Source of the DNA: Saccoglossus kowalevskii
Lineage: Eukaryota > Hemichordata > Enteropneusta > Harrimaniidae
Length of the DNA stretch: 25,574 bases
Assembly (NCBI RefSeq): GCF_000003605.2
Contig: NW_003141821.1
Span: 1 to 25,574, forward strand
Direction: 5' to 3'
The position numbers and the translations under genes are program-made. Each line of letters starts with the position of its first letter. The stretch's first letter is position 1. The notes beneath the pieces were generated by a model, which did not search any database, was not told the DNA's origin, and worked only from the letters and a program-made list of their open reading frames with translations. Shown here piece by piece: positions 3,463 through 25,574 of the stretch.

Positions 3463-3603
3463 AACAAGTCATTGAAAATGACACAGTCCCCGTTAAATTG
3501 CTGAAAGTTCTCTTTGTGCTCGTCATATTAAAGCGGACGGGTTGTCGCGAGCGTGTCCTTGAAACTTGAGTTTCGAGTGGCGTATACAACAGATTGTTTA
3601 TTT
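3463..3603 (+). repeat. Left terminal inverted repeat of the foldback-type element
   Basis: Begins AACAAGTCATTG and ends at ...AGATTGTTTATTT. It pairs with 4408-4547 on the other strand with only scattered mismatches. Confidence 0.85.
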
Positions 3604-4407
3604 CTATCAATTTACAAAAAAAAATAGCAAAACTATAATACCATAACTATCATTATTAAACCACAAGCCTTTAGTACAGAGGTATAGATATGCCTGTCAC
3701 TTTTTTTAGATTGTAACGATAGTGTGTTTTACTACCTTATAAGGTATCTATTCTAAATGTTGTATTTTGGACATGCTTTGTCAGTTTTTATTCAAATTTA
3801 GAACATAGATCATACATGTTAGAATACATGTCCCTGACCGTTCGTGAGTTCCTGAGTTCGTCCGTCCGTCCATCCGTCCGTGCGTCAGTCTGTCCAGAGT
3901 CATATTTCAGAATCCTGTGGACCGATTCCGTTCATTCTTTGCATGTGCCTAATACCTTATGTGGGACATATGCACATGCAGTGGTTTAGAGATTCTATTC
4001 AAAATGGCCGACTGGCAGCCATATTGTTTTTTGTAAAATGTTGTATTTTGTCATTCAAACTTGGTACATATATTATTCATGTTAGAATACATGTCCATGA
4101 CGATTTATTTCGCAATTGGATCAAAGATTTTATGCGGTATCTTGGACGTGCTCTGACAGTTTTCATTCAAATTTGGCACATACATGTACTTTATACATGT
4201 TAGGATGCATGTCCATGACAATTTGTTTCAAAATCTAGTCTAGTCTTACTACTATATTTCCACAATTTATGTACCATTTTCATTCGAATTTGGCACATAC
4301 ATCATATACATATCAGTGTGTTTCATAATCAGATCAAAGATGGCCAAATAATGGCTGTTTTTATTTTTGGCCATATTACTACTACACGGAACACGTGTTT
4401 TGATGTA

Positions 4408-4547
4408 AATAAACAATCTGTTGTATACGCCACTTGGAACTCAAGTTTCAAGGACACGCTCGCGGCAACCCCTCCTCTTTAATATGACGAGCACAAAGAG
4501 AACTTTCAAACATTTAACGGGGACTGTGTCATTTTCAATGACTTGTT
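4408..4547 (-). repeat. Right terminal inverted repeat of the foldback-type element
   Basis: Begins AAATAAACAATCTGTTGTAT on the plus strand and ends CAATGACTTGTT. It is the reverse complement of 3463-3603. Inside the repeat the sequence diverges at once (CTATCAATTT versus ACATCAAAAC), so the inner boundary is sharp. Confidence 0.85.
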
Positions 4548-4776
4548 TATTATTACCATGCATAATATAGAAAGTTTTCTTATTTTTTACCGCGAGTCTT
4601 CATGTTTAATTTTATGTTCCTGTATCTGTAAAACTAAACCGATTAATATTATCCAAAATCGCCCTCACCATAAAACCTATATGTATGTGTCAACACATCA
4701 CCATCAATACACTTCAAACTATGTTGTATATATAGAATTATACAAATGTCAAACTATTACACGAGCTTGGCGGGAT

Positions 4777-4944
<168 letters not shown>

Positions 4945-5403
4945 CAGAAATTGTGTAAGATAGAGAAGTTAATATGAGAAGAATCTACGTGTGTTTTACA
5001 TCAGCATTATAATGCACTATTTACTTGCTCTGAAGATATAACACCTCAACGTAAACCATAGCTAATTACCGAAACTCAACTACCAAAGATCTTTTGTAAT
5101 TTCAAAGATAATATTTATTAATTGGATTTCAAACAAATTAGAGATTAATGTTATTAATAATCCCATACGAGCATCAACTAAGATTATGCCTTACAACATA
5201 TATCTGGTAATCTAATACTTATATTTTTTGTCCATGGACGCAAGCGCACATTTTGTTTATCTATATCTGGTGTGTTATTACTGTTGTTACTGACTCGTTT
5301 CCATAAACTTTTTTCTGAGTGCATACTGCCCTGTGCTCACATTACAACTGAGCGTATATATTTGTTTTAACATATGTAGAGGAACAAAACAGATTTCAAA
5401 CAG
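4945..5403. other. AT-rich intergenic DNA
   Basis: No feature recognised. In particular, the lectin exon 3 that would be expected upstream of the orphan terminal exon at 5747 is absent. Confidence 0.5.
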
Positions 5404-5918
5404 ATACAAAATGCATAATGTAGTTTCTATTATGTTGCATGTTTATTTAATTACACTTCAATTAAAACGCAATCCTACGTGGGTCATAACAAGGTGTAAG
5501 ATTCAACTTGAGAGAAGTGTATTGATTAGTACAAGCAAGTGCAAATAAACTGCGATGGTACAGTACTGATGAAATGCAGAGTGCCACTTCAAATAACAAC
5601 AACTATTTTGTACTCATGTATAAACGTTAAAACCGACAATTATCGTAGAAACGAGGTAATAATAACATGATGTCATTGTTTGTCCTATGTGTTTATATTT
5701 TTTGAAAATGACGTTAAATATTCATTATTGCTTTTTTAGCCTGCAGCTATATTGAGTGTCAATAACCATGAATACAGTCGACGCATTGTTGTAGTTCGGT
5801 GGCCATGGGGCTACATATTTTTTGTAGATCTAATTTCTGTATTTGCATGCTAAACTAATATAATAAAGTTCATCTAGACATAAAATGTGTGTCTTAATTC
5901 ATATCTAAGTAGTATAAA
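5404..5918 (+). pseudogene. Dispersed third copy of the lectin-B last intron and terminal exon (orphan)
   Basis: Collinear with 10440-10955 in the left arm and, inverted, with 21010-21540 in the right arm. It consists of part of intron 3, the acceptor CCTGCAG, the terminal exon 5747-5853 (107 nt, ending TAA), an AATAAA signal near 5862 and about 50 bp downstream. The exon frame starts in the same phase as in lectin B and reads through VNNHEYSRRI to the tail WPWGYIFFVDLISVFAC. The right-arm copy has the same length and tail. The signal-peptide and lectin-domain exons are not found upstream, so this is an isolated 3' end unless they lie outside the window. The intron flank is clearly more diverged than the exon. 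Confidence 0.85.
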
Positions 5919-7592
5919 CACACACACAATATTTTCTAGCATCTTCAAGATGTACACCCGAGTTATCAGATGTATACCCATCATCATTATTTCATTGAGT
6001 AGTGTAGCACAACTGGACGAAATATTACAGTAAAAAGTAAAATAAATGACACAAAAGTATTTAATTTTACACATGTAGTAGAAGAATTATTTGGTAATGT
6101 CATATTATTCAGACAGTACTTTTCATTGTAGCTATACATATACGTCTCTGTATGTGGTAGATTACTGCTCGTACATTGAAATACCCAAACTGACCGACAT
6201 CTGTTGCTTCTTGTTTTATATTTTATCTTCCCTTGCTATCGTCTGCAGGGAGTGTCACAGGGAAGAGCTTTACACGAGCTAGCCGACATCATCACAGTCG
6301 CATAAATTACATACAAATTCATAGTTGTTATGACAAATACATCTCAAATACATGGACGAAATTGGGAAACAATATTTTAGTTCTCATTGAGTTATGATTA
6401 ATTCATTTTCAACACCGCGGTAACACTTGATATTTTCACTTCTATAGTAACAGTGGATAACACATTCGAATGGATGGTAGTCAATCGTATCTACTGACAT
6501 AAATTATCATTCTCATCATGACATGTACATTACGCGACTAAAATGAAAAGTAAATGATTGTATTCAAAAGCGTATTTTGGCGCCCGTTGTAACAAATTTT
6601 ACACATCCGGCAATTAACTTGTATTTGACCACTTACTCTACTTCCAACACGTTTCACCCCTTTCTATTCTATATCACTACGCATTTTGTATTTGTACATT
6701 TTTTTTGTTCTGAATAAGACTGTAATGCACAGTACATTCGATTGGATGGTCAGTCTAACTCATAAAGGGAAAAGTTATGTACTTGAATCCCCACTTCGGG
6801 GATTGTTTCTCCAACAGTGTGGACAGTATGTTCGAATGTGATAAATTTTAATTTGTGACTGCTGGACATTATTAAACCTTAGACAGTCATCGGTAAGCAA
6901 ACATATGGAAGACATCTTGAGCTGTATGCTGAGAGAGAGAGAAAGGCGGAAATCAGTTTTCCGAGTGGTGCAGAAGTGACAAAGAAGAACCAGACTAAAC
7001 AAGAAAATCACTGAAAAAGGTTTTTGCCACGTCAACAAATACGTCAACAAAACCTGTATCATTTATTGTTTATTATTGTTCATAAGAATTCTGTATGTGA
7101 TGTCTTATTGTCCCTTCTCATTATCAGTATGGATCAAACAATTTATATTGTATGAAAGCAACTCACGCAGTTCAGTGGCGAAGATCACATTACTCATGGC
7201 AGACTAACAAAGTAAATGGAAAATATATTTAGTATTGACTTAAATACTGTTATTTCCAGCGGAAATCGTTTTTTTTATTAAATAAACACACTTTATGTCT
7301 ATAGGATGATTTGTTTTATTAGTAAAGCATGCAGATACATAATGATATATTCTAATTATTGTAGACCTATGGTCATCGGGTTGTCACAATACGTTGGTTG
7401 TGTAATTGGTGTTGACGATCTAACAAGTATCACAGAAAATGAAAACTGTAAAAAAACTGAAAATTGTACATATAATAAGAACTTATAGCTTAAAATATTG
7501 TCTAAAATAGTTCATGTTGACAAATCTTTTCAGTTACAGATTAAGTTTTAAGTAGATAATTTGTCGTGGTTATTTATATGACGGGAACATAC
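5919..7592. other. AT-rich intergenic DNA, no firm gene
   Basis: No coding family recognised. A possible terminal exon of left lectin A lies on the minus strand at about 7445-7420: acceptor TTTTTTACAG, then a short frame VFIFCDTC and a stop, in the phase needed after 7593. This is weak. Two similar patches, ACATTCGAATGGATGG near 6463 and ACATTCGATTGGATGG near 6733, are too short to call a repeat family. Confidence 0.4.
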
Positions 7593-8637
7593 CTTGTTTT
7601 TCACAACTATAACCTTTTTGTCTGATGTCATTACAATACTCATCATTCCATTTGAAGTCCCGGCTTTTTCTGCAAAATATAATTAAATAAAGCAATAATG
7701 ATATGATGCATAATTATCGTAATATTCGTACGAAGTGTGAATAATGGGTGATATTGTTGCCAACACATACAATAGAATAAAATCAAATAAACACCAATAA
7801 CATAGGCAAAACCATCCACATGCATTTTAAAAACAATGTTTGTTTGTGCAGCCCAACACTGCATTCATTGATTCATTGGCATATAATAGAGTGACACCAA
7901 AACAACAACTTTCAGGTTATCATTAGTAAACTCACCTCAGTTGTGCACAATCTTGGCCCTCAGCTGCGTTACGCTTAATGTTATTGTTTGGTTCGTCATT
8001 AGCCCAGTTTGTGTAACAAACGGGTCCACCATTGAGCTACACAAATGTAATTTCGTTAGCTCTGTCGTTCAGACCAATCCAAAACCGTTAGCACCAGAGT
8101 AGTATATACAATCTCTGAGAAGATCGTCTGTGCGTTTATCGGGAATCCTGGCCAATTGTCCATTGTCACTTTCACATATTTGTATTGCTTCATCCCAAGT
8201 AACTGCATCAGTGTAGATTTCATGTCCTGAATTAAAAAAAAATACATAATTCTTTAGAATGTTCATGACGCGCATTAACACAATCAACATTGAATATGTT
8301 CTTCAATCACAACAATGAGAGCCGGAAAAAACGGACTGAAAAGTCGTTATTTGAATTTAGTCTATCATAGACAGAAAACGACCGGCGGGATATATAACAA
8401 ACATAATAATGAAATATCTGTGTTGCAGTGCTATTGTTTGGATAACACTAACGGAGATGCATTATATTGTCCATACAACTTGAACAACTATCATTGTTCT
8501 GATGACTATAGGTTGCACAGAAATCCTGTACACAAGTAAATTATACAATAATAATTTCAATGTCCATACATACCATGAACAAAATATAGGCAGGATATCG
8601 TGCTGATCACAATGAGGGCAAAGATAAGATACTTCAT
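7593..8637 (-). pseudogene. C-type lectin A, left-arm copy (damaged)
   Basis: Exon 1 (8637-8574) encodes the signal peptide MKYLIFALIVISTISCLYFV and ends in phase 1 at a GTATGT donor. Exon 2 (8226-7936) carries most of the lectin domain: WDEAIQICESDNGQLARIPD, the WIGL region, CYTNW, an EPN motif and QDCAQL, with donor GTGAGT. Exon 3 (7669-7593) encodes DFKWNDEYC and the closing SCE, giving the WND motif. EPN plus WND are the calcium-site-2 residues that family knowledge links to mannose-type binding. Damage in exon 2: one T is missing in the WIGL codon run, so the frame stops at GFGLV; there is an in-frame TAG where the right arm has TGG (FVWLNGG); and 30 bp are missing near the exon start relative to the right arm, between two ATG repeats. 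Splice sites and a TATA box remain. It is probably a secreted lectin turned pseudogene. Confidence 0.88.
8315..8539 (+). other. Small open frame antisense to lectin A intron 1, also open in the right arm
   Basis: A 74-codon frame begins MRAGK, contains CYCLDNTNGDALYCPYN and ends RNPVHK. The counterpart at 24939-24718 is 73 codons with the same start and stop. The arms differ by a one-base and a four-base indel near the 5' end that together keep the frame. Later differences include Lys/Thr and Leu/Ser replacements, so there is no sign of protein-level constraint. It has no recognised domain and no signal peptide. It could be a short antisense gene, or chance openness in duplicated intron sequence, which I think likelier. 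Confidence 0.25.
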
Positions 8638-9105
8638 GGTGATACAAGAACTTGGCGACGCTGTATGAATATAAGTTCTGTCAAACTATGAAAAAATAGG
8701 TTTGTCAGTTGAATTTAAGATAAAGCCAACAAATATCGAAATAGCGAGCTGTTACACTTGAAGTAAGTCAACAAGCTTGCCAATACCAGTATAATAAATG
8801 AATTAACATTTTGGACTAATTTGTTAATTGTAGGTACTGGTTTCATTGGTTTCATGTGTAAAACCCATCAATCTTATAAGTAATATACTTCAAGTAAATT
8901 GTGGACACTTAAAAAACATATGAGTTGATAATTCAGTTACTGATTTCTTAGGGACAATACTGTGCAGCATTAATGTGAATAGATCCATTGTGTTAATATT
9001 AATGACAGAAATATATCACAGGATTCAAACCAAATGAATAGAGATATACTTATGACTGCTTCCCATTTAGATTACGCAGTGTGACGTAACGTGAACACAT
9101 CAGCG

Positions 9106-9113
9106 TATTTATA
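9106..9113 (-). promoter_or_regulatory. TATA box of lectin A (left arm)
   Basis: TATAAATA on the minus strand, about 470 bp upstream of the lectin A start codon. The downstream sequence (GTGTTCACGTTACGTCACAC) is related to that following the lectin B TATA box at 22841-22836. B shows a 5' UTR donor (ACGTAAGTAT) there; the matching position in A reads CATAAGTAT, so A's copy of that donor is lost. Confidence 0.65.
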
Positions 9114-9676
9114 AATGTTTAAGCGTGCAAACCGCACAACTATTTGCTATCAAAAATATACTTGTTACAATGATTGAGTATCAGAGAAGATGCAAATATT
9201 TCAATAATGATTTTTTGCGCAAGATAAAATAGTCTATTGAAACACATGTTTTCCCTTATTGTTCATTGAAGCATATATTCGTGCATGGAAAAGTATTGAA
9301 TCAAAAATAAGCAGGAAAACGATTTTGTAAAATGAGTATCTCTATTAAAAGCGTAATAATAGTTGTTTGTTGAAGCAAATTTTATAATTACCAAATATCG
9401 TATTCATCACCATCTGTGTGTTTCCATAAAGGAATGCCATGGATAATTTTTGCAGACAGAATGTAACAATCTAATCATTCCAGCTGAACAATGACATCAA
9501 ACATGATTTGAAATTACAAATTATGTCACACTTTTACACCAATAAGCCATTGTGCTCTGATTGTTGTCAATAGATTGCAATGTTAAATGTTTCAGACGGC
9601 CCAAAGCAACTACTGTAATAAAAATAAAGACTTCCAAAGTCTGCTAGAAATAACTTTCATATAAATTTCTTACTTT

Positions 9677-10827
9677 ATGACAAACGCACAGATGATTTGA
9701 TCATACAATACATAATAGACAGTGGCTTACGCGATCAGGTTGATACTGGATTTTGGATTGGCCTAAACGACAGAAATGAAGAAAACAACTTTAAATGGAT
9801 TAATGGTGGAGAGGTGTGTTACACAAACTGGGGTGAAGGGGAACCAGATAACAACACTAATAAAAACCCGGAGGGTCAGGACTGTGGTCAACTGAGGTGA
9901 GTATGATAGCCATAGACAAAATATTTGGCCATCTTTTACCCATCCCTAAATATAAGATTATTGTAAGAATACCACAAGTATCAACAAAAGTCATTTTGAT
10001 GCCATGAGCGTAATCGATGCGATCCCATACTGCCAGTATATACGGTGTGGTATTCTTATGACAATCATATTAGTACATATTTTCCTGCTTTCATTACAAT
10101 GCTACTATGTCCGATGTAAACAAATGAAAGTTGTATTCGCCCATACTCGGTTGTATGACCAAATATATGTGTTTGTTATTGTATGTACAACGTACGCACA
10201 TTATTTAACTTTTTTTTACGATGGCGGTCACATCCTGTGTTTACTGTTTACACAGATATGTATATTATATTGTACTTTGTTGTCGTTGTAGAAAAACAAC
10301 AGACTTTAAATGGGATGATGAATATTGCACTGGTGTTGATATCAGAGAGAATGGTTTCATTTGTGAAGTACAAGGTATGTTAGTGTGTAATAATACGACA
10401 CTGATGTTTACACCTTTTACTAACATTTCTATCTTAAGTTACAACATGCATAATGTTGTTTCTACTTTGTTGCATTTTTATTCAATTAAAACGCAATCTT
10501 ATGTGGGTCATAACAACATGTAAGATTCAACTTGAGTGAAGTGTATTGAGAGAGGTACAAACATGTGCAAGTAAAATGTGCACATGTGCGGTTTTGATGA
10601 CAGGCATGAGGGTCACTACAAATAACAATAACTGTTTTGTATTCATAAATTAATAAACGTTAAAACCAGCAGTTATCATAGAAATGGCTTAATAATTCTA
10701 ATATGACGTCATTGTTCGTCTTATGTGTTTATATATTTGTGAAAATAATGTTAAATTTCATTGTTGTATTTTTCAACTTGCAGCTGTTCTGAATGTCAAT
10801 AACCATGAATACATTGCATTGTTGTAG
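9677..10827 (+). pseudogene. C-type lectin B, left-arm copy (5'-truncated)
   Basis: Homology to lectin B starts abruptly at GACAAACGCACAGATGAT (9677), in the middle of exon 2. The promoter, exon 1 and the first part of exon 2 are absent. Remaining exons are 9677-9896 (GFWIGLNDRNEENNFKWING, CYTNW, EPDNNT, GQDCGQL, donor GTGAGT), 10292-10374 (TDFKWDDEYC to FICEVQ, donor GTATGT) and 10784-10827. The last exon carries a 4-bp loss relative to the two other copies, so the protein ends VNNHEYIALL instead of running into the hydrophobic tail. The lysine codon that is a stop in the right arm is intact here. The calcium-site motifs read EPD and WDD rather than EPN and WND. Without a promoter or signal peptide it is unlikely to make a secreted lectin. 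Confidence 0.88.
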
Positions 10828-10894
10828 TTCGGTGGCCATGGGGCTACATATTTTTTGTAGATCTAATTTCTGTAATCGCATGCTAAGCTAATAC

Positions 10895-10900
10895 AATAAA
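10895..10900 (+). terminator. Poly(A) signal AATAAA, left lectin B
   Basis: AATAAA 68 bp after the truncated stop, in the position conserved in all three copies of this 3' end (near 5862 and at 21084-21079). Confidence 0.65.
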
Positions 10901-11568
10901 GCTCATATAGACGTATAATGTGTGTCTTATTTCATATCCAAGTAGTATCAACATCACGTTAGTAAGAATACGATTTTCCAATTTTCGATTTAGTATTCTT
11001 GTTGGATTTGTTCACCGTTTACGATTACGTTTCCTTGCAATCTGCTGACTGAATTCCACTCACCAATTACTTATCGAAAAGGCATAACGTAACGTGTAGC
11101 TTGAAGAATTATTAAAATAATACACCTCTAGAATTGCTTCGTCTTTATTAACGTTAAAATCCGACGTCCGCAAATAATTAAAACATCTGACATCCTAACA
11201 TCTGGGAAACAAGACAGTGATTTTGAATATTCTGATTTCTGGCACATGCTCATTCAATCACTAAATCTGTGGAGATTTGGGTGTGGTTGCCATAAAACCA
11301 CCATTTTCCGTAATGGCTGAATATAAAAAAAATCAAAACTTATTTTGTCTTTCATTCCAAAACGAAATTAGAAGCTGAAGCTGAATGTATCTTAACAAGG
11401 TGTATTAATACTAGAATTAGTGAGAATAAGTATTTTGCATCTGAGTACCTAGTCTAGTTTTTAATACTTCTGTTTGGTACTTCATGTAGATAAATAATTC
11501 AGATTATGATTTGCCATTTGATGAAAAAAAGTTGATTCAGCAGCACACACGCGAGTTCTGTTATTCAC

Positions 11569-11580
11569 TACGCATGCGTA
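11569..11580. promoter_or_regulatory. Perfect 12-bp palindrome TACGCATGCGTA (NRF1-like core)
   Basis: TACGCATGCGTA is self-complementary and contains GCATGC flanked by CG dinucleotides, resembling half of an NRF1 site. The right-arm equivalent near 20374-20386 reads ATGCGCATGCGTA, closer to the NRF1 consensus. Binding is an inference from motif shape only. Confidence 0.3.
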
Positions 11581-11959
11581 TGAACCAACCAACGAATACT
11601 GTACTACAAAAGCAGTAATTTCATTTAACGATAAATTATAATCAAATTTGGTCTTCCCAATAAATAAAAGTATTAAAAAGTATATGTATCCGTCTATGAT
11701 GCATTCCTGTAGCAGGTAAAATAAGAGAAAAAATTATTTTAATGGAGAGGCATGTGCACATGCGTAGTCTCAACGAATAATTGTTAGTCTATATATAAGC
11801 TGACGATTATGAATGTTATTTCGTTTATTTCTTAATTATTCGTTTATAGAAGATGTTTATACTAAATACGCTGATAATGTTTGTCACAATCTGAAGCAAT
11901 ACCCAATTGTGTTATCGTTCAGATGGTAACATTACGAGGCGCTAAAATGAAATATTGAG

Positions 11960-13640
11960 AAAATTGAAGTCAGATGGGAAAAAGGGAAATTTTAAAAATG
12001 GTAAATTATATATTGTTCAGGATTCTGATAGAGCGCGGTCATCAAATCAGATCCAAAGAAAAGAAGACAGACGACCACCTACTCGCCATCGAACACGCCT
12101 TAACACAAACAACAACCTTTGAACACTGAAGAAAATGTGCTGGTCGACAATATTGCCCAATAGGAATCCGGCCAAGGCCCGACGAAAATAAACTTTATTT
12201 CGTGGAATATCAGAGGATTAAAATATAAACTTCAGTCTCCCGAATTCAAAAAAAAACTTTCTACTATCATTTGATGTTATTTCTTTAACAGAAACCTGGG
12301 CTTATTCTGTCGACCAGTTCTCTGATTTGTTGTTTCATGGATTTAAAGTGTACAATCGTATTAGACCGCGAAGGTAGGTATTTGGTCAATTTTCTGGAGG
12401 TGTCATAACACTAATTAGAAATAGTTTGATTCACCATGTAAAATGTATCAAAACTGACCTACATGATTGCTTATTTTTCCTTTTCCAGAAAGAATTGTTT
12501 GGCTTTGATAAAGATATCATCTATTGTAATGTTTATATACCTCCCCAAAATGCAACACCCTATGATAATCTTGAATCACGAAATGGAATTGATTTATTTG
12601 AAAATTGCAAAAACAAATTTGATTGTAAACGGTGTTTTTAATGACCGTACGTGAAATGAGCCAGATCTTATCATGACTGATAATATAGATTATATTATAA
12701 ATGAATTTCCATATATTGAAGACATCGTCAACAAGAGCAACAAAAGATAACATTTCAAACAATGTTGGTCATACTTTGGTATCTCTTTGCTGCTCACACA
12801 ATTTGCATATGTTGAATGGTAGAGTAGGCAGCGATGCAGGTGTTGGTGACTTTGCATGTATCGCAAGTAACGGGGCAAGCCTTGTTGACTATGTTCTTGT
12901 GTCGACACCTTTATTTACTGATATTGCTGATTTCTTTATTATGACCTGCACAGAGTCTCATCATCTTCCACTTGTATTTAGTATACAGGGGTCTGTACAT
13001 AAACAATTTTATGTTAATGCAAATTGTATGCAAAAGGTCAACTAACTACGTATGTATGGCTGCTAATAAAAAATGGTTATATAAAGATGAAGAAATCGAG
13101 GCAGTTTCTTGGGGTTGTATTTTCTTGTAGACTTCCATGGTCAGAGCAACAAAGGTTTTAGCACAACAACCATAAAAGCCATGTTTGCCATTATGAAAAC
13201 AAGTGACAAAACAGGTCCCCTAAATTATGATGTATTTTTTAAACTTGTTGACTGTTTGCCAATTTTAACATATGGTGCTGAAATGTGGGGGTTCCGACAG
13301 TATGATTGCCTCAAAAAAAACCAGATTCTTGCTTGTAGGTATTAACTTGGTGTCTCACAAAAATCCCCAAACAGTTGTTTATTAGGCGAGTGTGAGAGTT
13401 ATCCCATTTTTCTGTATACCGCGAAACGCTGTGCAAAAACTTTGGCAAAATTAATTAACATGCCCCATAATAGATATCCCCGTAAATGTAATGATATGCA
13501 TTACAGAAATAAACGTTTCTATATAATCATTTGGTAACTGGCAACATGTCTGTGAATTATGTTGGCAAGGAATGTGTGCAGTATAGACGACTTATACCCC
13601 GTAAATGCAAGAATTTTAGTTATTTTTATCGTACAAATCC
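11960..13640 (+). mobile_element. Decayed non-LTR retrotransposon (LINE), reverse transcriptase core missing
   Basis: Three pieces in LINE order. (1) About 11961-12123: an ORF1-like C-terminus (GNFKNGKLYIVQD, then an Arg/Lys-rich tail and a stop). (2) About 12190-12990: an apurinic-type endonuclease with FISWNIRGL, FDVISLTETW (catalytic Glu), SGGVITLIRN, IIYCNVYIPP, then DYVLVS and the closing SHHLPLVFS, where the usual SDH has become SHH. (3) About 13100-13500: the post-RT region with LTYGAEMWGF, SCLLGEC and NRYPRKC. The RT palm with FADD-type motifs is absent between about 13045 and 13095. Frames are broken by in-frame stops (after the RRPRR-like stretch near 12374 and at 13342) and a frameshift at the A run near 12250. 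The arrangement fits Jockey/CR1/L2-type elements; the clade is not certain. No poly(A) tail or target duplication was found. Confidence 0.82.
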
Positions 13641-14005
13641 GAACACAGTGATATAAATGAAGGCCGATTGAAATGAAAATACAGTACACAGATAACGGTG
13701 GTTTTATAATTTTTATTTTCCATACGTTTTATGAGGGAGAAACATTTCAATTTTATTAAAATCGTCTTAAATGTGATAACGACTATTGGTTTGTTATGTG
13801 TCAAATTGCACCGTACACTCATTCTCTCTTGTTTAGTGTTTGGTTATAGCTAATCCGCAAAACGAAGCATGTCAAGCTTATTGCCGTTAGAGGCGTCGTT
13901 AAAAGGCACTGTTTCTTGTTAGTTAGTATACCGCAATGTACCACGGGACATAATAGGTGTTATTGATGTCTAACGCAAAAGTGTATCGTAGCGATTCAAA
14001 CAAAA
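13641..14005 (+). promoter_or_regulatory. Upstream region / 5' UTR of the sulfotransferase gene
   Basis: No other gene here. An in-frame TGA at 13964-13966 precedes the start codon with no intervening ATG, and the start context is AACAAAAATGT. I see no clear TATA box close to the gene. Confidence 0.4.
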
Positions 14006-17000
14006 ATGTCAGTTAGTCCGTGTTTCTGGAAGTGGCCTTTCATGTGTTTCGTGTTCGTGTTACTGGCATACATCATGATGTGCAGTCTGTGGACAATTGT
14101 AGAAATGGATCCTAGAATATCAATTGCAAATCAAGGTAAGCGGCACGGTACTATTAGCAAAACAAAATTACCTCACCAATTAACGAATTTCAGAGTAAAT
14201 TTTGTAAACGTTTAATTGTATGTTATTGAATGGCAACACAGTAAATGGTTATGCTAATTGTTTGCTACTGCATGTTATTAGAACAAAATGTAACCCTTCA
14301 CAGCAACACATGTACTATGAAGGAAGCGGTGCATGGTAATGAATTAATATTATCAGATATTATGGCAATGCTCTATTAAAATTCATGTCTAAATAGTACT
14401 ATCAGCAATAACTACGATTACATATTTTTTATCCTTGCTAGCAGCGTTACATATTTTTAATAAATAAATACACTATTTAGCTTCTTTGACATACGTAGTT
14501 CGATTTTAATTACACCACTGCGATCAACGACCAGCAAAATAATATTGTAATGTACGGGCAAATACTGCAAAGTAAACAGGGTGTATATTTGTTATAACAA
14601 TAATTACTCCTTTGAATGTATTGAACTTTTAAAATACCAGCAATATGAAAAATATGCAAATAATATGAAGGGCAGTATACTGTTTTAGTTGTTACTGGTC
14701 GCTCAGTTAAATATAATGTAAGCAATATTCCTATTACTGCAGGTAAGATTAATATACGCGTTAATCACGAGATTAATGTAGGAGCAAACCCTCCAATTGC
14801 TATGAAATGTATTATGTATGTAAATGTATATTTCTTATTAGATGACTGGCTATCTCAATATAAGATGGAAAGCATTCACAACAACCAATCAGAGGTACAT
14901 AACATGAATGTAAGTCTGATTACAATTTTTCATTGTGTACCATGACAAGATATATTTGGCAAATAGATAATGATTTGGGGGGAGGAGGCTTTACATAGTT
15001 TGCAGTTCATTGCGCATGCCCATTTGCGTAGTTCAGTACGCATGTTCGGTTGTGGAGTTGGTAAATCATGGGCGAATGAATCATGAAAAAACGTCCATAA
15101 TTTACGATAAAGCATACTTATTTATTATGTACACCAATATTAAACATTTGGCTCTTTGATTTAGTTCCAACAAAATATTACCACCTACTGAATATGTATA
15201 TTGAATATAATATGAGTATAATATCACATTAGAACTTTCTTTGATTCATAAATATAATAAAAACAATTAGTATATCGAGTATCGCCTTAACCCACGTCTC
15301 TGAATGACATTTTTAGATATGTATTGCCCTTTTCCACTAAAATAATTTCGACCTTATTTTCATGCGATTTTGATGCGACCCTTCACTGTTTTTTGAATTC
15401 CTCAATGACATTGCACCATATTTTTATTAATGTCATTTAATCGAGAATAAAAAGTACCTGATGTTTGTTTTCAGAAATCTTTGACTCGTGTGATATACAA
15501 CAGGGTACCGAAGTGTGGAAGTCGTACTATTATGCATATCTTAAAGTTGTTATCTGTCCGAAATGGATTCCAAGTTCACAATTCACTAAATAACGACATG
15601 AAACACATGTCATGGACAGAACAGGTAATAATATATGAGAAAGTGGTTGTTACATTAACGCTCTTACATAACTTGATTTATGAAATTTAAATCAAGTATT
15701 TTTAAATCAACGTAAATTCCCGAGAATATAGGAAATGAACAAATTTCTGATTTCAGATTCAAAGTAGATTTCAAATTTAAAGTAGATTACAGATTTAATG
15801 TAGATTTTAAATTCAAAAATAGATTGCCGATTCAAAGTAGTTTTCGAATTCAAAGTAGTTTTCGAATTCAAAGAAGTTTTCTAATTCAAAGTAGATATTA
15901 GATTCAGAGTAGATTACAGATTCAAAGTAGCTTTCAAATTCAAAGTAGATTTCACATTCAAAGTAGATTTCAAATACGAAGTAAATTCTACATTCAAAGT
16001 AGGTTTCAGATTCATAATATCGTTATAGTTTTAGTATAAATTCAAAATAGCTTTTAAATGTCAAATATTTGACAATGGAACGGGCTTAACAGTAGAGCAT
16101 TGCTCGGTGAGGTTAGCAAATCAATATGCACAGACAATAACACCGACCTTCTGTCCGCACAAAGCCATGTTGGAAAAATTATTTCGGTAATACGACTGTT
16201 ATGAGTATGCCTGCCGCTAATTAATGAATTAATACATTATGCTTTTTTAACGTTACAGGAAAAAATCGCAAAAATTATTATTTATTTATTTTAGAAAGAA
16301 TTGGTAAACGAAATCTCGTTATTAGAGTCCCATTCTGTTTTTATACGTCATTTTCATTACATTGATTTTGAAAGGTAAGTATTTGTATACTATAGTTGTA
16401 CACTATGTCGTTGATGATATTCATATGATTACAAAGTACATAAAACGTACAAATAATCAGCACATATAGCATGTGAATATTCACGGAATTTATCATATTG
16501 CAACATAACAGTTTTGACAATTAGGGTTTCGAACCTACTTTTCAAGAATATGATTGTTATGTTATTATTATTATTCGTAAAGTTTATCAAAAAGCGATAA
16601 ACAACCGTATTTTAATTAAAATCGTGTTATAAAGAACTGCTCTCTGAATGACGTATGGCCAATGTTTGGGCTAGTATGGAACTGTAACTTAATGATGCTT
16701 GATTTTGATTTGACAAAACCAAATGAATGAAAATTGTGACGAGTTTTATGACCAACGTTCTAAACCACCATGCCGTGTTTGATACACCCAGATTTAACGT
16801 GACGCAGCCTATGTACATAAATATTATTCGTGATCCAATCGATCGTTTTGTATCTGGATATTATTATAGAAGATTTGGTGATCCCGAGCATCCTGAATAT
16901 CTCAACAGATCCTACCACGACAAAAACACAGTGAGTAAAGGATGTATATTTATTTACATTGTTCACTGGGGGTAATAGAAAAAAAATGAACTGCGTGTGA

Positions 17001-19313
17001 ATATTACTGAGCGGACTATTTAATATAAGACATAAACTTTATACCCGGATGTAAAACTCTTATGAATAGACGGCACCTGTTATGTACGCTGATACGTGTC
17101 CTTGCGTACAATAACCGTACAGTGTCGGTTTCGAGTGGTTACCATTTTTGGAGAGTGACCTAACTTTTACCAATAAACCACTTAATACTATGAACAAACG
17201 GAGTAAATAGATGTTCATGATTTTCCCTGACGACGATGTTCATTGCAAGTATTGAAAACTGTCATTCTTCACTAACCCCAGATAACCATTTATTTGTCCA
17301 ATTTTGCGGAAGTCAGGTTGTTCCATTTGTTTGTTTGTTGTGCAGGAAACGACTTATGTTTTACATTAATCTCAATTTTGTTAGTCTACCGTGTTTATGT
17401 GCGTACATGGTGTCTAATGGATTTTATGAGTCACATACTAATGTATGTACTACTGTGATATTACCTTACTTTCTTTAAATGTATCGGGGTCACAAAAGAA
17501 CATGTGTGCCAAGTTTAAAGCCACTGGTTATCTTCCCCTTATATTACAAAACATGTGTAATATCAAGAGTGGACACAATATTTTTAATTAAGAACACAGG
17601 CATATATTAAAGAGATGTGTAACAATACTACTTTGCAAAACTATTATTTTCTAGACTGTGGATGATTGCGTTTTGAGGAATAGATGGGAATGTAACGAAA
17701 CAAGCATGTTGCATATTATACCGTATTTTTGTGGTCAAGACATGCGTTGTAGGTAGGTAATATATGTGTACAATGTATTCACAACATTGGTGAGGACTAT
17801 TATGTACCATGGTAACACCCTAAGAAATCAGTTCAAAGCATTATATTTCCTCAATTTGTACCACCACTGTTATTGGAGGTGGTAGATCGGAGCGCTTCGT
17901 ATGTCCACTGTCTATCTGCATTTGTAACTTTATCTTGAACACTGATGTACCTCTGTCAGGGCCATTTCATGACAATATTTATGCAATTCTCTGTTTAGCG
18001 AATATGCCCATTTATAATGCTATTGCATCAGACGTATCTAAGTCAATGAAATCGGCTAAAATAACCTATATGCATACATTGGATGTGCTCTTTAATTATA
18101 ACAGTACAATGCTGCATATGTAAGCTTTGATTATTCATTAATGTAGATATAGTTCAGCTGTTCGCCAGAAGTATAAAACTTCTACAAAAGAAAGCCGTCA
18201 GTCAGTGTGAACATTGAGTTCTCTCTGCATAACTAACACTTTTTGGTATTTTGGTTTATAGTAGAATTGAAGGTTAGTACTTTAAACCTGATTGTTAAAC
18301 AGTTCATATAATCTCTAGATACAGTGGATTTAAATATTGTATTTCGATTGCTACTACAAAATGACAAGGGTGTAAATACATTTCAAGTATAGTGTAGCAA
18401 CATTATGAGTATTCGGGGCGGACATTCGGGCATTTTCACCGCCTGGTAACCATCACTGTGAAACAAATGCAGAACACAATCAGAAACAAATACTTTGGGA
18501 TGGTTGTTAAGGCTCTCCTAAGCAGTGTAACAATATTACCCATACGTTGCTCAGGGATACTACAAAGTTGAGTTTGTGATGCTTTCTCGACTTTCGCTGT
18601 TTCCATCGGCTTTTCGACCGGCGTTCCATAGCAACCTGTGCAGAGTTCATAGTAATACAAATTTGAGATTACAACATTGAAAGAGTTTGTCTGAGAAATG
18701 TACCATGTAAGTGACTTATTAAAATTGATAGCTAGCTTGGGTTATGTATTGTAATGCCCTTTGTTCTGTTTCACTTATGTAGGCAACCGTCTCAGTGGTC
18801 CCTCAATAAAGCAATATTCAATATGGACAAACGGTTTTTAGTGGTCGGCTTCACGGACAGACTCAAAGACACTATGCAAATATTAGAAAGACTGCTTCCT
18901 GCTATATTCGAAGGGGCGGCTGACTTACTCACTGATATACGTAAGTTTCAATTCACCGCGACGACATTGGTACATAGTAATTAGCAACATTCCCGTAAAA
19001 AAGGGGATGAAAAACTCGGATACTAGCAGTAAAACATGAATGCTTGTAGGTAGTAAATATTTCATTCATTCATTAATCTTACTGCTTCTATAAACTGTTT
19101 GATTATTATAAAATAACGCAATTCTTCTTTTTGTGTGACTGTTTTTTTTCTGTAGAAATCTCAGCTGCTATAGAGAAGACGACGTCTACTAAGAAAGTAC
19201 CGCCATCAGACCACGTGAGAGACATCATGCGGTTACGAATGAAATATGAATACAAGTTTTATGAAGCAGCTCTACAAAGATTCACGTACAAGTATGAACA
19301 AACCCTTGTATGA
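14006..19313 (+). CDS. UST: Uronyl 2-sulfotransferase-like protein (UST/HS2ST family), 8 exons, intact
   Basis: Family role: a Golgi type II membrane enzyme that moves sulfate from PAPS to the 2-O position of uronic acid in glycosaminoglycans. Exons: 14006-14135, 14842-14909, 15475-15624, 16295-16374, 16792-16930, 17655-17752, 18783-18940 and 19156-19313 (TGA). All introns are GT-AG and phases close to 981 nt, 326 residues. The N-terminus is short and cytosolic, followed by a membrane anchor at about residues 10-32 (FMCFVFVLLAYIMM). The PAPS 5'-phosphate loop is NRVPKCGSRT (75-84); KCGSRT matches UST better than the KTAST of HS2ST. RHFHYIDF (134-141) holds His135, equivalent to the catalytic His of HS2ST. 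The 3'-phosphate motif is INIIRDPIDRF (152-162), then YYYRRFGD. Paired Cys lie around IIPYFCGQDMRC, and FLVVGFTD precedes ERLLPAIFEGA and the C-terminal MKYEYKFYEAAL. Possible N-glycan sites are NVT, NRS and NET. It is somewhat shorter than vertebrate UST, lacking its long N- and C-terminal extensions. Exact uronic-acid substrate is not determinable. Confidence 0.94.
15757..16022. repeat. Degenerate 20-bp tandem repeat in sulfotransferase intron 3
   Basis: About 13 imperfect copies of a 19-20-bp unit built on GATTCAAAGTAGATTTCAAA, with common variants such as AGTTTTCGAATT and AGATTACAGATT. It lies wholly inside intron 3 (15625-16294), so it does not affect the coding sequence. Confidence 0.85.
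18436..18660 (-). other. Antisense open frame with a C-terminal hydrophobic segment in intron 6
   Basis: A 74-codon frame starting MYYYELCTGCYGTPVEKPME and ending in a membrane-type stretch (YLFLIVFCICFTVMVTRR, then stop). It has the shape of a tail-anchored peptide, but no family is recognised, and it is a single frame inside an intron of a gene on the other strand. Probably chance, or a fragment of an old insertion. Confidence 0.2.
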
Positions 19314-19674
19314 ATGCTACGATGCTATGCGTTTATTACGGTTTTGTGGATCCCATGATATTCTTTCGGTTTCAAATTCACGTCACGCTTACGTCACACA
19401 CGGTCCTATATTGTTTATGGGTATCCCACATCGGTTGGTGTGTTCTGGATAGATATTTGGAATATATTATTACAGTGACTATAACACAACAAGCTGCCAA
19501 TGAGAATGAACAAGATAGAACACATTATTACACACAATGGTATAACTATCATGTGATACGTCGCCAGAGATATATGTACTAGTCGTGTCCATTATCAACA
19601 AGAACCATGTGTGGATCTACAACAACACTCCTGTTTATACTACCGTACACTTGTTTCATAAGTCATGTACTTTG

Positions 19675-19680
19675 AATAAA
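19675..19680 (+). terminator. Poly(A) signal AATAAA of the sulfotransferase gene
   Basis: First canonical AATAAA after the stop codon at 19311-19313, giving a 3' UTR of about 0.38 kb. Open frames between the stop and this signal are not considered coding. Confidence 0.7.
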
Positions 19681-20156
19681 CCATAACAGGCTTTAAATTA
19701 AATGATGTGGCTGATATAATGATTTGGAAGCTCGACTTGAGCTATATTCAAATTGTTTAATGTAATGTAGTAATGCATTGTAATGTCACAAATGCATTGA
19801 ACTATTTCAATCGCGGAGAACATATAGATATACATTACAGGAAAAAAACAAGTGTTCAGCACCAATATCCTGAAAAAATAGATTAAAACTAAGCCATAAA
19901 AACGAAAGAATATTTTATTTTACTATTTCCCCCTACGTAATTGCTAATGGTCAGCCCCTTATGCTCTGATAAAAAAAAACATTGTTTACACTAAGAAAAT
20001 ATGTTTTATGGATTCCACACCTTACAACTACGTCATAATTATCGTAATTCGCCTTCCGCTCACACATCAAGTATATGCTGGTACCCACGTTATTTCAATG
20101 TATGTATGTTTGCCAAACTACTCGGATTAAACATATTCAACTCTTCACCGAGTAAT
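19681..20156. other. AT-rich DNA between the sulfotransferase gene and the right arm
   Basis: No gene recognised. Just outside the arm edge, ACTCGG (20120-20125) and CCGAGT (20148-20153) form a small inverted pair around AT-rich sequence. Confidence 0.4.
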
Positions 20157-21078
20157 GACTAACAATCATTCTTTCACACTGCGCATGTTCGCATGCCTCT
20201 CCGTAGAAATTTGTGTCCTCCTATTTTACCCGCAACAGGAATGCATTATGGACAAATACATATACTTTTTAATACTTTTATTTAATGGGAAGACCAGATT
20301 TGATTATAATTTATCATTAAATAAAATGCTGCTTTCGTAGTACAGTATTCGTTGGTTTGAAAAGTAAACGCTCATGCGCATGCGTAGTGAATAATAAAAA
20401 CTTGTTCATCAATTGCCAAATCATAATCTGAATTATTCATCTACATGAAGTATCAGACAGAAATATTGAAAACTAGATTAGGTACACAGATGCAAAATAC
20501 TTATTCTCACTAATTCTAGTATTTATCACATTTATCATATTCACATTCAGCTTCTAATTTCGTTTTGGAATGAAAGACAAAATAAGTTTGAATTTGTTTA
20601 CATTAAGCCATTCCGGGAAATGCTGGTTTTACGGCAACCACACCCAAATCTCCACAGACAGACAGACGACGGCAAAACAACTTAATTAATGGAGACAATA
20701 AATTAATCGGTCGATTTAGTGATTGAATGAGCATGTGCTAGAAATCAGATTATTCATAATCACTGTCTTGTTTTCTAGATGTTCGGATTTTAGTCGTTTT
20801 AATGATTTGCGGGCGTCAGATTTTAAAGTCAATAAAGACGAAGCAATTCTAGAGGTGTATTATTTTAATAATTCTTCAAGCTACACGTTACGTTATGTCT
20901 TTTCGATAAATAATCGGTGGGTGAAATTCAGTCAGCAGATTGCAAGGAAACATAATCGTAAACGGTGAAAAATCCGACAAGGATACTTAATCGGAAAAAA
21001 GAAAATCGTATTTTTACTAACGTGATGTTGATACTACTTGGATATGAAATAAGACACACATTATACGTCTATATCAGC

Positions 21079-21084
21079 TTTATT
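21079..21084 (-). terminator. Poly(A) signal AATAAA, right lectin B
   Basis: AATAAA on the minus strand just after the TAA at 21095-21093. The very short 3' UTR is shared with the orphan copy at 5404-5918. Confidence 0.65.
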
Positions 21085-21092
21085 GTATTAGT

Positions 21093-22619
21093 TTAGCATG
21101 CAAATACAGAAATTAGATCTACAAAAAATATGTAGCCCCATGGCCACCGAACTACAACAATGCGTCGATTGTATTCATGGTTATTGATATTCAGAACAGC
21201 TACAAGCTGAAAAATACAACAATGAATTTGAACGTTATTTTTACGAATATAAACGCATAAGACGAACAACGACGTCATATTAGAATTATTAAGCCATTTC
21301 TACGATAATTGCCAGTTTTACCGTTTATTAATTCATGAATACAAAACAGTTATTGTTATTTGGAGTGACACTCATGATTGTCATCAAAACCGCACATGTG
21401 CACATTTTACTTGCACTTGTTTGTACTAGCGCAACACACGTTTCTCAAATTGAAACTTGAATGTTGTTTTGACCTACGTAGGATTGCGTTTTAATTGAAT
21501 AAAAATGCAAAAAAGTAGAAACAACATTATACATGTTGTAACTTAAGATAGAAATGTTAGTAAAAGGTGTAAACATCAGTGTCGCATTATTACACACTAA
21601 CATACCTTGTACTTCACAAATGAAACCATTCTCTCTGATATCAACACCAGTGCAATATTCATCATCCCATTTAAAGTCTGTTGTTTTTCTACAAAGACAA
21701 CAAAGTAAAATATAATTTACATATCTGTGTAAACAATAAACACTGGATGTGACCGCCATCGTAAAAAAAGTTAAATAATGTGCATACGTTGTACATACAA
21801 TAACAAACACATATATTTGGTCGTACAACCGAATATGGGCGAATAAAACTTTCATTTGTTTGAAAATATGTACTCATATGATTGTCATAAGAATACCACA
21901 CCGTATATACTGGCAGTATGGGATCGCATCGATTACGCTCATGGCATCAAAATGACTTTTGTTGATACTTGTGGTATTCTTACAATAATCTTATATTTAG
22001 GGATGAGTAAAAGATGGCCAAATATTTTGTCTATGGCTATCATACTCACCTCAGTTGACCACAGTCCTGACCCTCCGGGTTTTAATTAGTGTTGTTATCT
22101 GGTTCCCCTTCACCCCAGTTTGTGTAATACACCTCTCCACCATTAATCCATTTAAAGTTGTCTTCTTCATTTCTATCGTTCAGGCCAATCCAAAATCCAG
22201 TATCAACCTGATCGCCTAAGCCACTGTCTCTTATGTATTGTGTGATCAAATCATCTGTGCGTTTGTCGGGAATTCGTGCCAACGTTCCTTCAAGACTAGC
22301 ATCCCAAGTATAGCTTCCAGCGACAATATGGTACTCCACAGCTACGTGGTAACTAATTGTGTATGCTGTAATTGAATAAAACATGCATTGTGTTTAGATT
22401 GTTTTGTTAATGTGTAAAATAAACAGAATCTAGCTGCAGTAACAACAATATGTTTAGCTACATTTCAAAAATATGTATTTACTAATTTTCGAAAAAATAT
22501 GTATTAACTACTTTTCATTGGTATACTTAAAGGTATACTTGTATAGTAAACGCTTACATACCACGGGTAGAGAACACACATGATACCAGGACAAATAGGG
22601 TAATGTTAATTATCTTCAT
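21093..22619 (-). pseudogene. C-type lectin B, right-arm copy (complete exons, one nonsense codon)
   Basis: Exon 1 (22619-22562) encodes the signal peptide MKIINITLFVLVSCVFSTR and ends in phase 1 at GTATGT. Exon 2 (22365-22050) has VEYHIVAGSYTWDAS, LARIPDKRTDDL, GFWIGLNDRNEEDNFKWING, YYTNWGEGEPDNNT and GQDCGQL. Exon 3 (21688-21606) has DFKWDDEYC and FICEVQ. Exon 4 (21199-21093) has AVLNINNHEYNRR and the tail WPWGYIFFVDLISVFAC. All phases fit. One base change makes a TAA (22084-22082) where the left arm has a lysine codon, cutting the protein before the calcium-site-2 strand. Relative to lectin A the segment with the first lectin-domain Cys (CESDNGQ) is missing, and the Cys of the CYTNW motif is Tyr here. 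It may be a recent null allele or a pseudogene; a sequencing error at that base would leave an open gene. Confidence 0.88.
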
Positions 22620-22835
22620 CTTGATACCAGAACTGAAAAATATCTAAATATTCGGGAAGTTCAATAACTAAGTTCAATAACATTTTAGTGAATGATTAAT
22701 GTGTGTTACACTGAATAACGATATTAGATGACGGTTTATGCAGTATTCGAGAGTGATAAGTCAGATATATACTTACGTTAAGACTTCTTCTATGGCAGAC
22801 TGTGCAGTGTGGCATAGCATGAACACTAAGGCGAA

Positions 22836-22841
22836 TTTATA
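22836..22841 (-). promoter_or_regulatory. TATA box of lectin B (right arm)
   Basis: TATAAA on the minus strand, with surrounding CTATAAATTCGCC resembling the lectin A box TATAAATACGC. Downstream, GCCACACTGCACAGTCTGCC leads to a 5' UTR donor ACGTAAGTAT, so transcription probably starts with a short non-coding exon spliced to an exon ahead of the start codon. Confidence 0.65.
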
Positions 22842-24197
22842 GAACTTCTAGTGTACAAACAACAAATACATCTATAATCTACTTGAGGCGAGATTCTTTT
22901 ATTTGTGAATTCCGAATTTTTACGAAATGGCTATTCTAATAGGTTCGTGTCATTGATGATATTAGAAAAGGCGTTTGCAAGCGCGACATGAACACGAGTT
23001 TGTTATCGTTGGGCGTTGTGAATGCACGTTCGTGGGAGAACAACTTCTGAAAACATGACTTGTCTATACTGCATCAAAAAGCGTGATGACGATTATAGTT
23101 TAGTGTCACACGCAACGTAATATTACCGTAATTGGTATAGTACAGGTGTGATGGTTCAAACACCAAAATGGCAACAGTAACAGAAAGACTTCCCTGGTGG
23201 CGATGATAACATACGAACACGGAGCCAACAGGTGAGGTTTCAACTGGTACTGGTATTATTATACTCTGCAAACATCAAGTACAATAACGCGGTAAAACTC
23301 CACTACTCCAATGACTAGATACTTAAACTCCAATACAATTCATCGAGATCTCCGATCTGATCTCAGTGCTGAACATCTCCCCTATATATACCTCCACTGT
23401 CTATAAATAGACCATTACATCAGCATACATAATGAGTCTAGCACTTACTACAAATTTCTAGAATGTTCCATTACCTTCTATTGCCTCCTACAGTGTTCTA
23501 TTACCTATTCAACCAGTTTCCAAAAAAAATCTTGAATATTTCACCCAGACACAGTACGGTTCTAGAACATTCTCATTTGTATAGGTGTTTTTATCTCAGG
23601 AAAATGTTTGTTTTTTTCGTAACGAATGGCAATGTTTTACACAGAAATGTTGGCTAAATATTTTAAATGTCTTGTTGTAATAATGTTATGTCTCATAGTA
23701 TGTAATTTGTTCTATACGATGTTTAAGGAATCAAACTAAAATACGAGCTAGTGCCTTAGCATAATGATAAACTGACAGTAGTGTATTATTTTTCTCAAAC
23801 TGAAACTAGCCATTCATGCCAAAAAGATGTCTTTTCACCATTCATTCGAAATATAATTGTTATGATCATTCACCCCAAAACGATTTGATGCAAGCCTAAT
23901 AGAACTTATGTGAATAGCCATTACTAGTATATCTCTTATGTTAATCCCATTCCAGTTAGATCCGGTGTAATCAGTCACACCAAATAGATTCTCAATTATA
24001 AGAAAGGTAGAAAATAAGAAATCTGTATAAAAGTTATTTCTGGCAGACTTTGGAAGTCTTTATTTTTATTACAGTAGTTGCTTTGGGCCGTCTGAAACAT
24101 TTAACGTTGTAATCTATTGACAACAATCCGAGCACAATGGCTTATCAGTATAAAAATGTAACAAAATTTGTTTACACATTTTTTTATGTAATTTCAG
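22842..24197. other. Right-arm intergenic DNA between the divergent lectin promoters
   Basis: Mostly sequence absent from the left arm (from 22270 to about 24018). No firm gene. Two TATA-like words (CTATATATACC near 23382 and CTATAAATAG near 23401) lie on the plus strand without a recognisable reading frame behind them. Open frames at 23074-23271 and 23463-23657 have no family resemblance. Confidence 0.45.
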
Positions 24198-24326
24198 ATT
24201 ATGTTTGATGACATTGTTCAGCTGGAAAGATTAGATTGTGAAATCCTCCTGCAAAAATGTCCACGAACTATCCATGGCATTCATTTATGGAAACACACAG
24301 ATAGTGATGAATACGATATTTGGTAA
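24198..24326 (+). other. Candidate terminal coding exon of an unknown gene
   Basis: A strong acceptor (a T-rich run, then TGTAATTTCAG ending at 24197) opens a 42-codon frame that starts IMFDDIVQLERLDCE, includes CPRTIHGIHLWKHTDSDEYD and ends IW, then TAA. An AATAAA signal follows two bases later (24328-24333). The left arm holds the same segment in inverse near 9508-9386, with a 9-bp in-frame deletion, one in-frame stop (TGA) and the acceptor AG changed to AA. No family was recognised and I found no upstream exon, so it may be a real last exon or a chance exon-like stretch. Confidence 0.35.
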
Positions 24327-24613
24327 TAATAAAATTTGCTTTAACAAACAATTATTATCACGCTTTTAAAAGAGATGCTCATTTTGCAAAATCGTTTTCC
24401 TGCTTAATTTTGATTCATTTATTTTCCATGCACGAATATATGCTTCCAATGTACAATAATGACAAACAATAGACAATTTAAACACGATAACTGACACGAA
24501 TTCTTGCAAAACTAAATCATTATTGAAATATTTGCATATTCTCTGATACTCAATCATTGTAACAAGTAGATTTTTGATAACAAATAGTTGTGCGGTTTGC
24601 ACGCTTAAACATT

Positions 24614-24621
24614 TATAAATA
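24614..24621 (+). promoter_or_regulatory. TATA box of lectin A (right arm)
   Basis: TATAAATA, equivalent to 9113-9106 in the left arm. The sequence following it matches for about 90 bp and then jumps over the region that carries exon 1. Confidence 0.6.
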
Positions 24622-25027
24622 CGCTGATGTGTTCATGTTACGTCACACTGCGTAATCTAAGAGAAATGGGAAGCAGTCATAAGTATATCTCTATTCATTT
24701 GGTTTGAATCCTTGAATTTACTTGTGTACAGGATTTCTGTGCAACCTATAGTCATCAGAACAATGATAGTTGTTCGAGTTGTATGGACAATATAATGCAT
24801 CTCCGTTAGTGTTATCCAAACAATAGCACTGCAACACAGATATTTCATTATTATGTGTGTTATATATCCCGCCAGTCGTTTTCTGTCTATGACTAAATTC
24901 AAATAACGGCTTTCCAGTCCGTTTTTTTCCGGCTCTCATTGTTGTTGTTGGAGAAAATATTCAATGTCGATTGTGTTAATGCGCGTCATGAAAATTCTAA
25001 AGAATTATATATTTTTTTTCAATGCAG

Positions 25028-25348
25028 GACATGTACTTCTAAATCATGTTGTCGTGGAGTATGAAATCTACACTGATGCTGTTACTTAGGATGAAGCAAT
25101 ACAAAGATGTGAAAGTGAGAATGGACAAGTGGCCAGGATTCCCGATAAACGCACAGACGATCTTTTCAGAGATTATATATACTACTCTGGTGCTAACGGT
25201 TTTGGATTGGTCTGAACGACAGAGCTACCGAGAATACATTTGTGTGGCTCAATGGTGGACCCGTTTTGTTACACAAACTGGGCTAATGACGAACCAAACA
25301 ATAACACCAAGCATAACGCAGCTGAGGGCCAAATTGTGCACAACTGAG
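25028..25348 (+). pseudogene. C-type lectin A, right-arm copy (exon 1 lost, exon 2 damaged)
   Basis: Only exon 2 lies in the window; its acceptor is TTCAATGCAG. It starts HVLLNHVVVEYEIYTDAVT and keeps residues deleted from the left copy. It shares with the left copy the missing T in the WIGL codons. Its own damage: TGG to TAG in DAVTWDEA (ACTTAGGAT), an extra T before the CYTNW codons, a missing base before the QDC cysteine, and a donor changed from GTGAGT to ATGAGT. At the junction near 24712-24717 the signal-peptide exon present in the left arm (8637-8574) is gone. The FVWLNGG tryptophan, a stop in the left copy, is intact here. Later exons would lie beyond the window. Clearly a pseudogene. 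Confidence 0.88.
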
Positions 25349-25574
25349 ATGAGTTTACAAATGATAACCCGGAGATTTTTGTTTTGTTTCTAATATATGC
25401 CAATAAATCAATTAATTCACCATGAATGATATAAGGTATGTTTATATGTATTATCCACTCAATTACACTACGATATAATTAGTGTTGTTGGGCTGCAATC
25501 ACATGTGAATGGTTTCTCCTATGTTATTGGTGATCATTTGATTCCCATCTATTGTAAAGTGTTGGCAATCAACT

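Follow-up and report, generated by a model that had tools for sequence, protein, structure and literature searches.

A 25,574-bp stretch of Saccoglossus kowalevskii DNA (assembly GCF_000003605.2, contig NW_003141821.1, positions 1 to 25,574 of the forward strand; hereafter the window) contains an imperfect inverted duplication whose two arms carry the remains of C-type lectin genes and enclose an intact sulfotransferase gene. Comparison of the window with itself pairs 7751-11789 with 25574-20157 in opposite orientation, and both self-BLAST and a gene model built by hand agree with an earlier note that had described such a structure at these coordinates. The main parts of the duplication are as follows.

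7751..11789, + strand: left arm, 4,039 bp, with exons 1-2 of lectin gene L1 and the 3' part of lectin gene L2
20157..25574, - strand: right arm, 5,418 bp inside the window, with matching that continues to 6 bases short of the edge
11790..20156, no strand: spacer between the arms, 8,367 bp, its two ends without homology to each other
8543..9017, - strand: segment of 475 bp present in the left arm only, holding L1 exon 1
22268..24008, - strand: segment of 1,741 bp present in the right arm only, holding exon 1 and the beginning of exon 2 of L2', the right-arm copy of L2

Four minus-strand self-BLAST matches make up most of the pairing: 20157-20658 with 11789-11266 (81.7%), 20713-22267 with 11267-9679 (91.6%), 24011-24712 with 9676-9020 (85.2%) and 24715-25419 with 8542-7860 (88.5%). 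The top minus-strand hit scores 2,280 bits, compared with a maximum of 40.1 bits in 50 dinucleotide-preserving shuffles. The match picks up again at 7757-7822/25568-25502 (83.6%), 6 bases from the right window edge, and the claim that it runs across exons, introns and intergenic DNA to that edge holds, with matching still found at position 25568. The arm lengths are thus lower limits, and the inner limit of homology lies at ~11789/20157, with windows past this point at 45-50% identity. Two long homologous segments of opposite orientation that extend over exons, introns and intergenic DNA are one mark of an inverted segmental duplication, and the window contains them.

When 7860-11789 was aligned globally with 20157-25420 in reverse complement, arm identity came to 92.1% (266 mismatches in 3,374 aligned columns; Kimura two-parameter distance 0.084), with 28 insertions or deletions (indels) amounting to 2,446 bases; exact inverted matches reach 130 bp at most. 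Most of the difference in arm length comes from two segments, one of 1,741 bp that the left arm lacks and one of 475 bp that the right arm lacks. Since the longer segment holds the start of L2' and the shorter one holds the first exon of L1, these absences are most simply read as separate deletions, the former in the left arm and the latter in the right. The regions around the arm junctions (11700-12300 and 19700-20300) contain only short repeats of 12 to 23 nt. A transposon as the origin of the arms was considered and set aside, as the junction sequences hold no element recognisable by eye, with no transposon library search made. Scans of the window against Rfam (gathering threshold) and for tRNA genes returned no matches.

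Lectin gene pairs in the arms and their decay

Judged by the exons, each arm appears to carry two C-type lectin genes arranged head to head, designated L1 and L2 on the left and L1' and L2' on the right, and a fifth lectin piece lies farther left. The common layout has four exons, of which the first is signal-peptide-like, the second encodes the lectin domain, the third is short and the fourth is the last, and neither arm alone contains all eight exons of a pair. The exon limits below were taken from match limits and are accurate to a few bases.

7276..8637, - strand: L1, C-type lectin gene, broken; exon 1 ~8637-8572, exon 2 8226-7936, exon 3 ~7671-7591, exon 4 region within 7446-7276
9679..10953, + strand: L2, left-arm C-type lectin gene, broken; remainder of exon 2 9679-9896, exon 3 ~10290-10376, exon 4 from ~10783
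21026..22619, - strand: L2', right-arm copy of L2; exon 1 ~22619-22560, exon 2 ~22366-22050, exon 3 ~21690-21604, exon 4 from ~21200
24715..25419, + strand: L1', right-arm copy of L1; exon 2 from ~25027, exons 3-4 would fall past the window
5402..5920, + strand: fifth lectin piece, comprising exon 4 with part of intron 3 and the 3' end, ~81% identical to both L2 copies

The Pfam scan covered L1, L2 and L2'. The lectin domain PF00059 (Lectin_C; cut-off 22.6 bits) was detected in L2 at 9628-9897 (E=3.3e-8, 34.7 bits) and in L2' at 22085-22393 (E=6.7e-10, 40.1 bits), while a minus-strand piece of L1 (8072-8302) reached 19.5 bits, under the cut-off; L1' was assigned as a lectin by a tblastn match. 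Exons 3-4 of L1 fall outside the visible part of the duplication. A comparison of the remainder of L2 exon 2 with a viral contig collection yielded 8 pattern matches, with 0 confirmed.

The two genes of a pair resemble each other. With lenient scoring, L1 and L2 share five matches (promoter side and exons 1, 2, 3 and 4) at 62-73% identity, all five colinear, the exon-1 match having E=0.002, and this colinear inverted similarity means that the duplicated unit was apparently already an older inverted duplication. Over 502 columns, the fifth lectin piece has 73 differences from the left L2 copy and 79 from the right one, compared with 42 between the arms, and as it is more distant from each arm than the arms are from each other, it most likely split off before the arm duplication.

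None of the lectin copies in the window has a complete, uninterrupted reading frame. With L2 as the reference, L1 and L1' have one exon-2 frameshift in common, and the remaining lesions are specific to one arm. On the left, L1 has a stop codon and an exon-2 start 30 bp shorter than that of L1', and L2 lacks exon 1 along with the beginning of exon 2; comparison with the other two copies also reveals a 4-base deletion in its exon 4. On the right, L1' is missing exon 1, carries a stop and further frameshifts in exon 2, and has an exon-2 donor that is no longer GT; L2' retains all four exons, but with an in-frame stop in exon 2, which is also without six residues present in L1 near the start of the domain. 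Taken together, these lesions suggest that all lectin copies of the window are nonfunctional.

Between the arms, three blocks of L1 exon 2 contain 11 nonsynonymous and 2 synonymous codon changes, and the remainder of L2 exon 2 contains 6 and 2, such that 17 of the 21 changes are nonsynonymous against 80% expected without selection (a count that takes in changes to and from stop codons and leaves out L2 exons 3 and 4). The compared codons look as if they evolve unselected. In L2 exons 3 and 4 the arms differ at 0/87 and 5/107 columns, respectively.

The arms could conceivably be an artefact in which the assembly joined two diverged haplotypes of a single lectin region head to head, with no duplication in the organism. 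Some invertebrates are very heterozygous, and the right arm reaches the window edge without an independent flank, both of which would favour such a join. However, a mean divergence of 8% (12% outside the low-divergence blocks discussed below) and length differences of 1.7 kb and 0.5 kb are, as a judgement from general knowledge, high for alleles, the exon lesions differ between the arms, and the codon changes look unselected. Further, the arms are kept apart by an 8.4-kb spacer that contains an intact gene and has no second copy elsewhere in the window by self-BLAST. Joined haplotypes are an unlikely explanation, and the earlier preference for a real duplication is a reasonable one, but the window by itself does not constitute proof.

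Mosaic divergence between the arms

Mismatches between the arms are strongly clustered, with a variance-to-mean ratio of 3.6 per 100 columns that was equalled in 0 of 5,000 permutations. The longest identical run spans 130 columns (P=0.0048), and the best low-divergence segment has a score of 41.8, while none of 500 permutations exceeded 31.4. Two blocks of low divergence can be delimited, each a candidate gene-conversion tract.

9542..10498, + strand: low-divergence block 1, 31/923 mismatches (3.4%), right-arm counterpart 24145-21482
7936..9218, + strand: low-divergence block 2, 34/803 mismatches (4.2%), right-arm counterpart 25348-24506

By subtraction, 201 of the 1,648 columns outside both blocks are mismatched (12.2%). 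In a second permutation test performed after block 1, 0/1,000 permutations reached the observed score; the columns of block 1 had been excised and the rest joined, and because the score may cross the join this test is not relied on.

A mosaic of identity tracts between arms is a feature of converting palindromes and is present here, with rate variation as another possible cause. Past ectopic gene conversion between the arms is probably the best reading of the mosaic. The earlier suggestion of conversion thereby gains indirect backing from the clustered mismatches and the unconstrained-looking codons. A real duplication is also compatible with selective constraint or a low mutation rate as the source of the similarity within the blocks, an explanation that competes with conversion alone and appears rather unlikely. 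The blocks overlap gene bodies and similarity is comparatively high in the exons, including exon 3 of L2 without a single mismatch, all of which would fit constraint, but the codon counts, with exons 3 and 4 outside them, show no purifying selection. Intron 2 of L2 is about as similar between the arms as the exons are, whereas intron 3 is not (11/358 versus 38/403 differences; Fisher P=0.0003, for segments chosen after inspection of the data). With codons that look unselected and two introns that behave so differently, coding constraint is a poor explanation for the blocks.

Several observations weigh against conversion, or against the broader reading of a decaying duplicated cluster. Because low divergence was itself the criterion by which the blocks were chosen, their percentages are biased low, and the remainder still contains two weaker low segments (20/367 and 0/50). 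The identity of L2 exon 3 can be explained by constraint as well, and regional differences in mutation rate could mimic conversion, the overlap of block 1 with the sole outgroup, the lectin piece at 5402-5920, being ~60 columns. The frameshift shared by L1 and L1' sits inside a low-divergence block, and so it may be older than the duplication or may have passed from one arm to the other later by conversion. Lastly, all evidence comes from a single window.

It should be noted that any conversion is best placed in the past. Each block spans one arm-private deletion (475 bp and 1,741 bp), making conversion across those places since then improbable. This bears on a more dynamic interpretation of the nested inverted lectin copies, namely a palindrome that is still slowly recombining, in which the arms invert the spacer with its sulfotransferase gene, so that both orientations occur in the population, and go on converting each other, spreading the lesions. 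The clustered mismatches and the exact inverted matches of up to 130 bp are what such a palindrome might display, but the large divergence, the indels and the deletions within the blocks argue against it, and an active palindrome seems very improbable. Spacer inversion, raised earlier as a potential consequence of the arms, finds no support in this sequence given the 8% mean divergence, the 28 indels and the shortness of the exact matches. A long hairpin RNA had been put forward as well and is likewise not supported as a product of this sequence, the longest exact inverted match being 130 bp and the arms lying 8.4 kb apart.

A 25-nt imperfect inverted repeat at 9952-10070, in intron 2 of L2 and inside the 130-bp identical run, is possibly a small mobile element (RNA folding z=-2.4; 2/200 shuffles fold as well).

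The spacer gene and other features of the window

The spacer is occupied in large part by the sulfotransferase gene, for which the following model was chosen by hand.

14006..19313, + strand: intact sulfotransferase gene, exons 1-4 at 14006-14135, 14743-14819, 15475-15624 and 16295-16374
14006..19313, + strand: same gene, exons 5-8 at 16792-16930, 17655-17752, 18783-18940 and 19156-19313 (stop included)

The eight exons are open throughout and encode 329 aa, with AG at 7/7 acceptors and GT at 7/7 donors. Exons 1 and 2, which likely supply a membrane anchor and stem, are the least certain, as their sole basis is the reading frame and the splice signals. The spliced product aligns with heparan sulfate 2-O-sulfotransferase (HS2ST, PDB 4ndz) over residues 75-322 (E=7.5e-41) and matches Sulfotransfer_2 (PF03567) at E=5.4e-13 over profile positions 10-150 of 252. 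In a search of solved structures, exon 7 alone recovered HS2ST at 3.5e-6, and a 79-aa stretch of exon 3 alone returned no sulfotransferase among 7 weak matches (best E=0.018). Judged by these alignments, the spacer gene is a relative of HS2ST, with 2-O-sulfation as a putative activity. Uronyl 2-O-sulfotransferase constitutes a related family. Comparison of the sulfotransferase with a prokaryote contig collection gave 6 pattern matches, 0 of them confirmed. No function is evident for the arms, and with respect to their duplication the sulfotransferase gene looks like a bystander.

An 18-bp minisatellite (14.7 copies, 15749-16014) lies inside an intron of the hand model. The remnant of a long interspersed nuclear element (LINE) reported in the spacer is weakly supported, as one of three spacer pieces matched Exo_endo_phos_2 at E=0.019 and 15.2 bits, below the cut-off of 27.4, and the other two pieces gave no match.

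Additional repeats and a reading-frame piece are located to the left of the arms. A 32-bp tandem array of ~22 copies extends from the left window edge (1-723), a 50-bp tandem repeat occupies 2493-2762 (5.4 copies at 93%), and a TATT microsatellite of 42 copies (100% matches) occurs at 4776-4944. A 148-bp inverted repeat (3463-3610 and 4400-4547, 93%) encloses ~790 bp. Its two copies could be the terminal inverted repeats of a small mobile element, and inspection of 3463-4547 by eye revealed no clear target-site duplication. A piece of reading frame resembling a GNAT acetyltransferase lies on the + strand at 1613-1873 (PF00583, E=8.6e-6).

Proposed history and comparison with known systems

The arrangement may be accounted for in four steps. 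The colinear inverted similarity of L1 and L2 suggests that a single lectin gene was first duplicated head to head to give the divergent pair. Together with its flanks (4-5.4 kb or more in all), this pair would then have been duplicated again in inverted orientation, resulting in the observed structure in which the copies flank a sulfotransferase gene that is single in the window. Every lectin copy in the window would subsequently have lost its function, in part through the arm-specific deletions and point lesions described above. While still similar, the arms would also have exchanged blocks of ~1 kb by ectopic gene conversion, a step to which the divergence mosaic points with reasonable, if lesser, confidence. 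The second and third steps taken jointly, a local inverted duplication within a C-type lectin cluster undergoing decay, with all copies in the window since dead, are considered likely. Overall, the lectin cluster appears to be evolving by ordinary birth and death. No description of the locus was found among the titles and opening abstract lines listed by the literature searches, which is not to claim its absence from print.

As such, the locus offers a compact case of birth and death, with two apparent rounds of inverted duplication, arm-specific losses and probable conversion between dead copies, all beside an intact enzyme gene. It also serves as a caution that a long inverted repeat alone is no sign of an inversion switch or of a source of hairpin RNA.

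Three known systems are useful for comparison. For the spacer gene, the likeness to HS2ST (PDB 4ndz and 3f5f) consists of the alignment of its product over residues 75-322. Innate-immune gene families in the oyster are locally tandem-duplicated, with pseudogenes among the Toll-like receptors, as reported in PMC4346834. Local duplication of a family and the presence of some pseudogenes are shared with the lectin cluster, whose immune role is putative; in contrast, the oyster account deals mainly with Toll-like receptors in tandem linkage, and the word "inverted" occurs 0 times in the main text of that paper (PMC4346834).

The palindromes of the human Y chromosome (e.g., P6) are a structural parallel, in that they too are inverted repeats and undergo gene conversion between arms (PMC3723533), a process to which the divergence pattern points here. 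According to PMC3723533, their arms are >99.9% similar, conversion tracts have a mean of 2,068 bp and inversions are rare. A converting palindrome of the Y type would have an arm identity above ~99%, whereas the arms in this window are 92.1% identical overall and the largest low-divergence block reaches 96.6%. The lower identity, the many indels and the broken genes set this locus apart from the Y palindromes and are consistent with conversion that was, at most, past and patchy.

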